NCBI GenBank assembly: GCA_025057135.1
Contig: JANWXY010000042.1
Span: 1-44,070 of the forward strand
Direction: 5' to 3'
Source: Bacteroidia bacterium
Lineage (GTDB): Bacteria > Bacteroidota > Bacteroidia > SpSt-205
DNA length: 44,070 bases
Numbering within the stretch: the stretch's first letter is position 1; the number at the start of each line of letters is the position of its first letter. Of this stretch, positions 16,614 to 17,707 are shown piece by piece. The notes beneath the pieces were generated by a model that had not been told where the DNA came from, searched no databases, and saw only the letters and a program-made list of their open reading frames with translations. A program made the translations under genes and the position numbers.

Positions 16614-17694
16614 TCAGCTCATCTGAAGTAGATAACTTTTGAGAAAAGGCTCTATTTCCCCGTCCAAAACGCTCTGTGCATCACTGGTCTCGTAATCTGT
16701 ACGCAGGTCCTTGACCAGCTTATAGGGATGGAGAACATAGCTGCGTATCTGCGAACCCCACTCAATAGGGCGCTTCTGCGCCTCAAGCTTAGCTCGTTCT
16801 TCTTGGCGCTTTTGAAGCTCAAGCTGATATAATCGGCTTTTGAGGAGTTGGAGGGCCTTTTCACGATTTTGGTGCTGAGAGCGTTCTTGCTGGCAAGCCA
16901 CGGTAATTCCTGTGGGTATATGCCGCACCCGAACAGCTGTTTCCACTTTATTCACGTTTTGTCCACCATGGCCACCCGCTCGGAAAGTATCCCACTCTAA
17001 ATCATTTGGGTCTATTTTGATTTCTATGCGGTCATCCACCAGTGGATACACAAATACCCCTGCAAAGGAAGTATGCCTGCGTGCATTGGCATCAAAAGGG
17101 GAGATTCGGACAAGCCGATGGACGCCATTCTCGCCTTTGAGGTACCCATAAGCGTAGGGAGCGTCTATCTCTATGGTGATATTCCGGTACCCTGCCCCAT
17201 CCCCTAAGAGTTCATCAACGATGGTAGCTTGCCATCCTTTTTTCTGAGCATACATCATGTACATGCGAGCCAACATTGCTACCCAGTCTTGGGCTTCTGT
17301 ACCGCCTGCGCCAGCGTTTATTTCCATGACACACCCATAAGCATCTTCAGGCGCAGAGAGCATTTTCTGCCACTCTAAATCACCTATGGCTTGTTCTGCT
17401 TCAGAAAAAATTCTGGATAGCTCTGACTCATTCATCTCGCTGGACTTATACAGCTCAAGGGCCATTTCTGCCAGCTCCACAGCCGAGGCTGCAGCGGCGT
17501 ATTTGTCTATCCACTCTTTTTCCGCCTTAATCTGCGCCAGAATCTTACGGGCCGCCTCTGGGTCCTCCCATAAATCAGGAGCCTGACTGCGTATCTCCAA
17601 CTCCGAAACTATCTCTTCTCTGCGAGGGATGTCAAAGAAACCTCCTTAGCGCGACGAGGCGCTCCTTTAGGGCTCTGAGGGCTTCTTGGGTCAT
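16614..17694 (-). CDS. prfB: Peptide chain release factor 2 with programmed +1 frameshift
   Basis: RF2, about 359 residues after frameshifting; it releases peptides at UGA and UAA. The zero frame runs from the ATG at 17694 for 20 codons to TGA at 17632-17634. The classical cassette is present: AGGAGG (17641-17646), TTT, then CTT TGA C. A +1 slip on CTT continues with Asp in the long frame to 16614. Diagnostic motifs are SPF (about 198-200, stop-codon recognition) and GGQ (about 243-245, hydrolysis). An ORF finder would start the gene at 17600 and miss the first 31 residues. A TACCTTTG box lies 5 nt before the ATG. Low RF2 should raise frameshifting, giving autoregulation as in E. coli. Confidence 0.95.
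17632..17646 (-). promoter_or_regulatory. prfB frameshift signal (SD-like stimulator, CTT slip codon, TGA)
   Basis: AGGAGG, 3-nt spacer, CTT TGA followed by C. This is the same order and spacing as the E. coli prfB recoding site. The internal SD sequence requires an accessible anti-SD on the ribosome. Confidence 0.92.
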
Positions 17695-17699
17695 AGCTG

Positions 17700-17707
17700 C
17701 AAAGGTA
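17700..17707 (-). promoter_or_regulatory. -7 box of prfB
   Basis: Perfect TACCTTTG ending 5 nt before the ATG at 17694. Confidence 0.65.

Follow-up and report, generated by a model that had tools for sequence, protein, structure and literature searches.

The window is a stretch of 44,070 nucleotides from the Bacteroidia bacterium assembly GCA_025057135.1 (contig JANWXY010000042.1; the genome is called G000 below) and carries prfB on its minus strand. The gene consists of a short leader frame that ends at a premature stop and an RF2 frame shifted by +1. The following features were located from 5' to 3' of the gene:

17700..17707, minus strand: TACCTTTG, a Bacteroidota -7 promoter box (TAnnTTTG) that ends 5 nt before the leader ATG
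17632..17694, minus strand: prfB leader frame from ATG to the premature TGA, 20 codons
17646..17648, minus strand: TAA in the RF2 frame directly upstream of the cassette
17641..17646, minus strand: SD-like stimulator AGGAGG, extending to AAGGAGGT (17647-17640)
17634..17637, minus strand: slippery CTTT (P-site CTT shifting to TTT), invariant in 10 genomes of the genus and family
17631..17634, minus strand: premature stop TGA, specific for RF2, followed by C (TGAC, a weak context)
16614..17633, minus strand: RF2 body (TIGR00020), read in the +1 frame from GAC onwards

The leader starts with the ATG at 17694-17692 and ends with the TGA at 17634-17632, which is followed by C17631. Leader and RF2 frame overlap in AGGAGG-TTT-CTT-TGA-C, and the cassette reads CTAAGGAGGTTTCTTTGAC, with the spacer TTT at 17640-17638 and the slip codon CTT at 17637-17635. 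The extended stimulator AAGGAGGT is an 8-nt complement to the 16S tail of a congener (G005). All required cis elements are present, namely the premature RF2-specific stop, the SD-like element 3 nt before CTTT and the TGA followed by C, and they stand at the canonical spacing. The pattern AGGNGGNNNCTTTGAC occurred once in the window; 0.22 occurrences were expected even with one mismatch permitted. The upstream TAA closes the RF2 frame to in-frame initiation from further upstream, and this frame opens at the identical place in every copy from the genus and family. RF2's own final stop is a TGA as well.

The mechanical ORF finder began RF2 at TTG 17600. This ORF (17600-16614, minus strand) matched TIGR00020 with 464 bits from profile position 29, while the +1-shifted product of 359 amino acids reached 479.8 bits from position 2. 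With the shift, the RF2 N-terminus is complete and the score exceeds that of the truncated ORF, which confirmed the anatomy proposed in the first-pass annotation, an intact cassette linking a 20-codon leader to the RF2 frame. The same annotation had expected standard gene callers to truncate the protein at 17600. This applies to the mechanical ORF finder but not necessarily to site-aware pipelines, since NCBIfam types its prfB model as 'exception'. The ORF starting at TTG 17600 could also mean that RF2 is made mainly via internal initiation and without a frameshift. Such a product would lack the leader-encoded N-terminus and the residues between the slip site and 17600, both of which are covered by the family profile, and the sole promoter box identified is positioned for the leader ATG. 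Internal initiation is thus considered very unlikely.

Among named records, the nearest are 'Bacteroidia bacterium' MAGs of hot-spring origin, such as SKYB95, SKW77 and KatS3mg025. prfB was found in ten genomes of the genus and family, the window's own included. The 19 letters of CTAAGGAGGTTTCTTTGAC were identical in all ten, each of which needs the frameshift for RF2; the survey of close relatives suggested earlier thus found AGGAGG kept in 10/10 and no uninterrupted frame among them. Leader codons 16-20 (CTA AGG AGG TTT CTT) were likewise identical in 10/10 genomes, compared with only 6 codon-invariant columns among the 229 residue-invariant ones of RF2 (eight genomes), where no run exceeded one column. 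As AGG accounts for only 8% of the Arg codons, this comparison of aligned sequences establishes that the whole cassette is under nucleotide-level selection. An ordinary prfB could look interrupted in a similar way if assembly or sequencing had introduced an indel, and the draft assembly behind the window has 94 contigs. However, the 19 letters are shared by ten separately assembled genomes, one of them a single 2.27 Mb contig, and the elements are canonical and canonically spaced. An indel, named in the first-pass annotation as a refutation, is so improbable on these grounds that it was excluded.

The genome around the full stimulator had been described as otherwise avoiding SD sequences, which the counts support; rpsG is an exception. 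In 632 kb of G000, 4-nt SD cores at -17..-4 were counted before 22 of 410 starts, about half as many as in control windows (48 and 46; p = 4e-4); each called ORF was taken to begin at its first ATG, and some starts are therefore wrong. The depletion at starts was similar in G005. Genome-wide, AGGAGG is not rare (542 seen and 540 expected). The extended SD of rpsG (uS7), AAAAAGGAGGTAAAAA-ATG, has 11 nt complementary to the G005 16S tail (G000 contig 4, minus 19558), and given this gene the avoidance is not absolute. No SD was found here on rpsU or rpsR, the genes that usually carry one in Bacteroidia. The rpsG of G189, a more distant genome discussed below, was examined as well and has none.

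The bS21 protein has a C-terminal helix, and Tyr54 is present in the predicted protein of G000, G002-G005, G010 and G011; G007 bS21 also has ...RAAYRQ. In F. johnsoniae, mutation of bS21 Tyr54 raises translation of a strong-SD reporter (PMC9976891). The G000 assembly is without 16S, and the anti-SD was taken from G005, whose tail GGATTACCTCCTTT contains an intact CCUCC. With this tail, the G005 prfB site, which is identical to that of the window, forms a duplex of -11.9 kcal/mol. A search with RF00177 for 16S across the genus gave no match, the 16S body being absent or reading N. 16S tails were recovered by pattern and confirmed in context only in G005, G040 and G042. Pattern matches in G000, G003, G004, G007, G008, G010 and G011 did not count as 16S.

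In flavobacteria, the -7 box occupies positions -12 to -5 relative to the TSS (PMC6847099, PMC9723704). With its box 5 nt before the ATG, the prfB mRNA is therefore predicted to be leaderless or to have a 1-nt leader. A box was located 3-9 nt upstream in 80 of the 410 starts, with a mode of 4 nt that places the TSS on the A of ATG, and only 28 boxes lay 10-51 nt upstream. In G005, 63 of 255 starts had a box; by chance, approx. 1.4 boxes would be expected among 534 starts. The AT-rich patches described for F. johnsoniae promoters, near -18 and -28, were seen as well. Box-bearing starts in the window are, e.g., -16584, -19755, -13566, -8517, -29660, -43573, -25168, +25276 and +35585. Elsewhere in Bacteroidia, a box 3-9 nt before the ATG was found at 1-4% (G267, G016) or 10% (G189) of starts. 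Widespread leaderless mRNAs, amounting to ~20% of the genes sampled, are hence a prediction for this genus. Published values, each from another Bacteroidota, are low, with 3.7% for leaders under 10 nt (PMC7366714), 5.5% for leaderless mRNAs (PMC9723704) and about 13% for leaders of at most 10 nt (PMC6847099). The prediction is unusual for Bacteroidota and perhaps more novel than the prfB site; if confirmed, leaderless transcription would be a translation-initiation route unreported in the cited Bacteroidota literature.

From the architecture of the locus we infer that prfB is autoregulated by a standard +1 programmed ribosomal frameshift, and this reading is very probable. The 20-codon leader would be translated, and ribosomes would stall at the UGA when RF2 is scarce. 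Base-pairing between AGGAGG and the 16S tail would help the tRNA-Leu to slip from CUU to UUU, and translation would run on into RF2, while plentiful RF2 would lead to termination of the leader. In this lineage, bS21/bS18/bS6 probably keep the 16S tail on the platform, and the pairing would then have to follow the tail's release during the stall.

The switch itself is ordinary and its mechanism standard and known. A premature stop in prfB was reported for 64% of 12,753 genomes (Prince 2025, PMC12421855) and the frameshift was counted in 523 of 726 Bacteroidia, i.e. 72% (McNutt 2021, PMC8710568). The latter study reported AGGAGGUAUCUUUGAC as the site in F. johnsoniae, raised the question of access to an occluded anti-SD and suggested that prolonged pausing allows the tail to come off the platform. 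The first-pass annotation had suggested that the site may be a natural probe of anti-SD accessibility in a lineage with reported occlusion at initiation. This interpretation is supported in part, by a genuine conserved +1 site and a full SD in an SD-avoiding host with bS21 Tyr54, but it is not new, as both the paradox and the use of the prfB site as a probe have already been stated and tested in F. johnsoniae.

Low frameshifting efficiency was reported for F. johnsoniae (Naeem 2024, RNA 30:136, as cited in PMC12421855), which is perhaps tolerated with only 7% TGA stops in this organism (Prince 2025, PMC12421855). In both G000 and G005, TGA ends 42% of the called genes, so the low-demand argument is not transferable here. 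The same occlusion residue and the same full SD are combined with a TGA share six times that of F. johnsoniae, and the supply of RF2 can therefore not be casual.

The statement that such frameshifting needs an accessible anti-SD was too strong, since several Bacteroidia families keep the frameshift without any SD. G071 and G211 have an SD-less frameshift site together with an intact CCUCC tail, and that of G216 is weak. Judged from these sites, pairing cannot be essential everywhere. In one incomplete MAG of the same order (G012), the prfB site TTACACCACTATCTTTGAC is SD-less and a His is aligned with bS21 Tyr54. In G277, G399, G350 and G029, TAA replaces TGA as the premature stop (CTTTAAC); a premature TAA in prfB is found in under 1% of genomes (PMC12421855). 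A match in G062 proved to be a false site call and did not enter the analysis.

The anti-SD could be read from the 16S tail in 52 genomes of 40 Bacteroidia families, and these were compared. A GGAGG or GGGGG core was present in 31 of the 35 families with CCUCC and in none of the five whose anti-SD is altered (Fisher p = 2e-4, with families treated as if unrelated). The prfB SD of G189 (anti-SD UCUCC) is AGGAGA, with -10.5 kcal/mol on its own tail and -7.9 kcal/mol on the canonical one. One of the two 16S copies of G189 reads UCUCU. G267 (UCUCC) and G346 (CCUCU) kept the frameshift without an SD. G189 and G267 are MAGs with a small risk of mis-binned 16S, though G267 has three concordant copies. 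Family f10 contains a genus whose anti-SD is UCUCC (GGAACATCTCCTT), and prfB is uninterrupted in 8/8 of its genomes with a read tail. In family f23, loss of the frameshift may precede the anti-SD change because the neighbouring family f21 is also in-frame and has CCUCC. On the RF2 tree, five anti-SD changes were placed, with two usable pairs on well-supported branches. The association of the prfB SD core with the canonical anti-SD is suggestive, the independent events being too few for significance.

The frameshift could also be real without AGGAGG acting by pairing in this lineage; the stall and the CUUU/UGAC context would then account for the slippage, and AGGAGG would be residual or retained on other grounds. 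The SD-less sites with intact CCUCC in G071 and G211 would fit such a mechanism. In the 2024 work of Naeem, an SD-less Winogradskyella site reportedly worked equally well. The low efficiency in F. johnsoniae (PMC12421855 citing Naeem 2024) points in the same direction. However, the rare codon pair AGG AGG is conserved letter for letter in a genus saturated at synonymous sites, the core is absent from 5/5 families with altered anti-SD, and AGGAGA is re-matched in G189. Slippage without pairing is therefore considered rather unlikely. The pairing-assisted frameshift can be extended to a broader proposal: pairing would be required at prfB despite occlusion at initiation, efficient frameshifting from a leaderless mRNA would supply the RF2 for 42% TGA stops, and the prfB SD and the anti-SD would have coevolved across Bacteroidia, re-matched in one lineage and eroded or lost in others with altered anti-SD. 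Taken as a whole, this proposal is tentative and falls somewhat short of being probable.

The prfB site is thus one more, very well conserved, example of a known mechanism. What appears novel here is the strictness of the cassette conservation and its seeming tracking of ribosome changes in some relatives. The stop usage, the anti-SD association and the predicted leaderless promoters are regarded as new, sequence-based material with moderate confidence. The natural anti-SD variants, one of them with a re-matched prfB SD, are ready pairs for testing the use of the anti-SD by elongating Bacteroidia ribosomes.

Compared to known systems, the site resembles that of E. coli prfB (AGGGGGUAUCUUUGAC), with an SD-like element, a 3-nt spacer, a CUU slip codon, UGA followed by C and a leader of ~20-25 codons. 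It differs in having AGGAGG instead of AGGGGG, in an SD-avoiding host and with a predicted leaderless mRNA. The F. johnsoniae site (AGGAGGUAUCUUUGAC; PMC8710568) likewise belongs to the Bacteroidia, with a full AGGAGG, CCUCC (here via the congener G005), bS21 Tyr54 and SD avoidance elsewhere. In contrast to F. johnsoniae, the TGA share of stops is 42% and not 7% (PMC12421855), the prfB mRNA is predicted to be leaderless and rpsU is without an SD. In Weeksellaceae, the frameshift is absent, prfB is uninterrupted and the anti-SD is UCUCA (PMC8710568), which illustrates the link between anti-SD and prfB site. While that family lost the frameshift, the lineage studied here keeps both the site and CCUCC, the latter as read in one congener.
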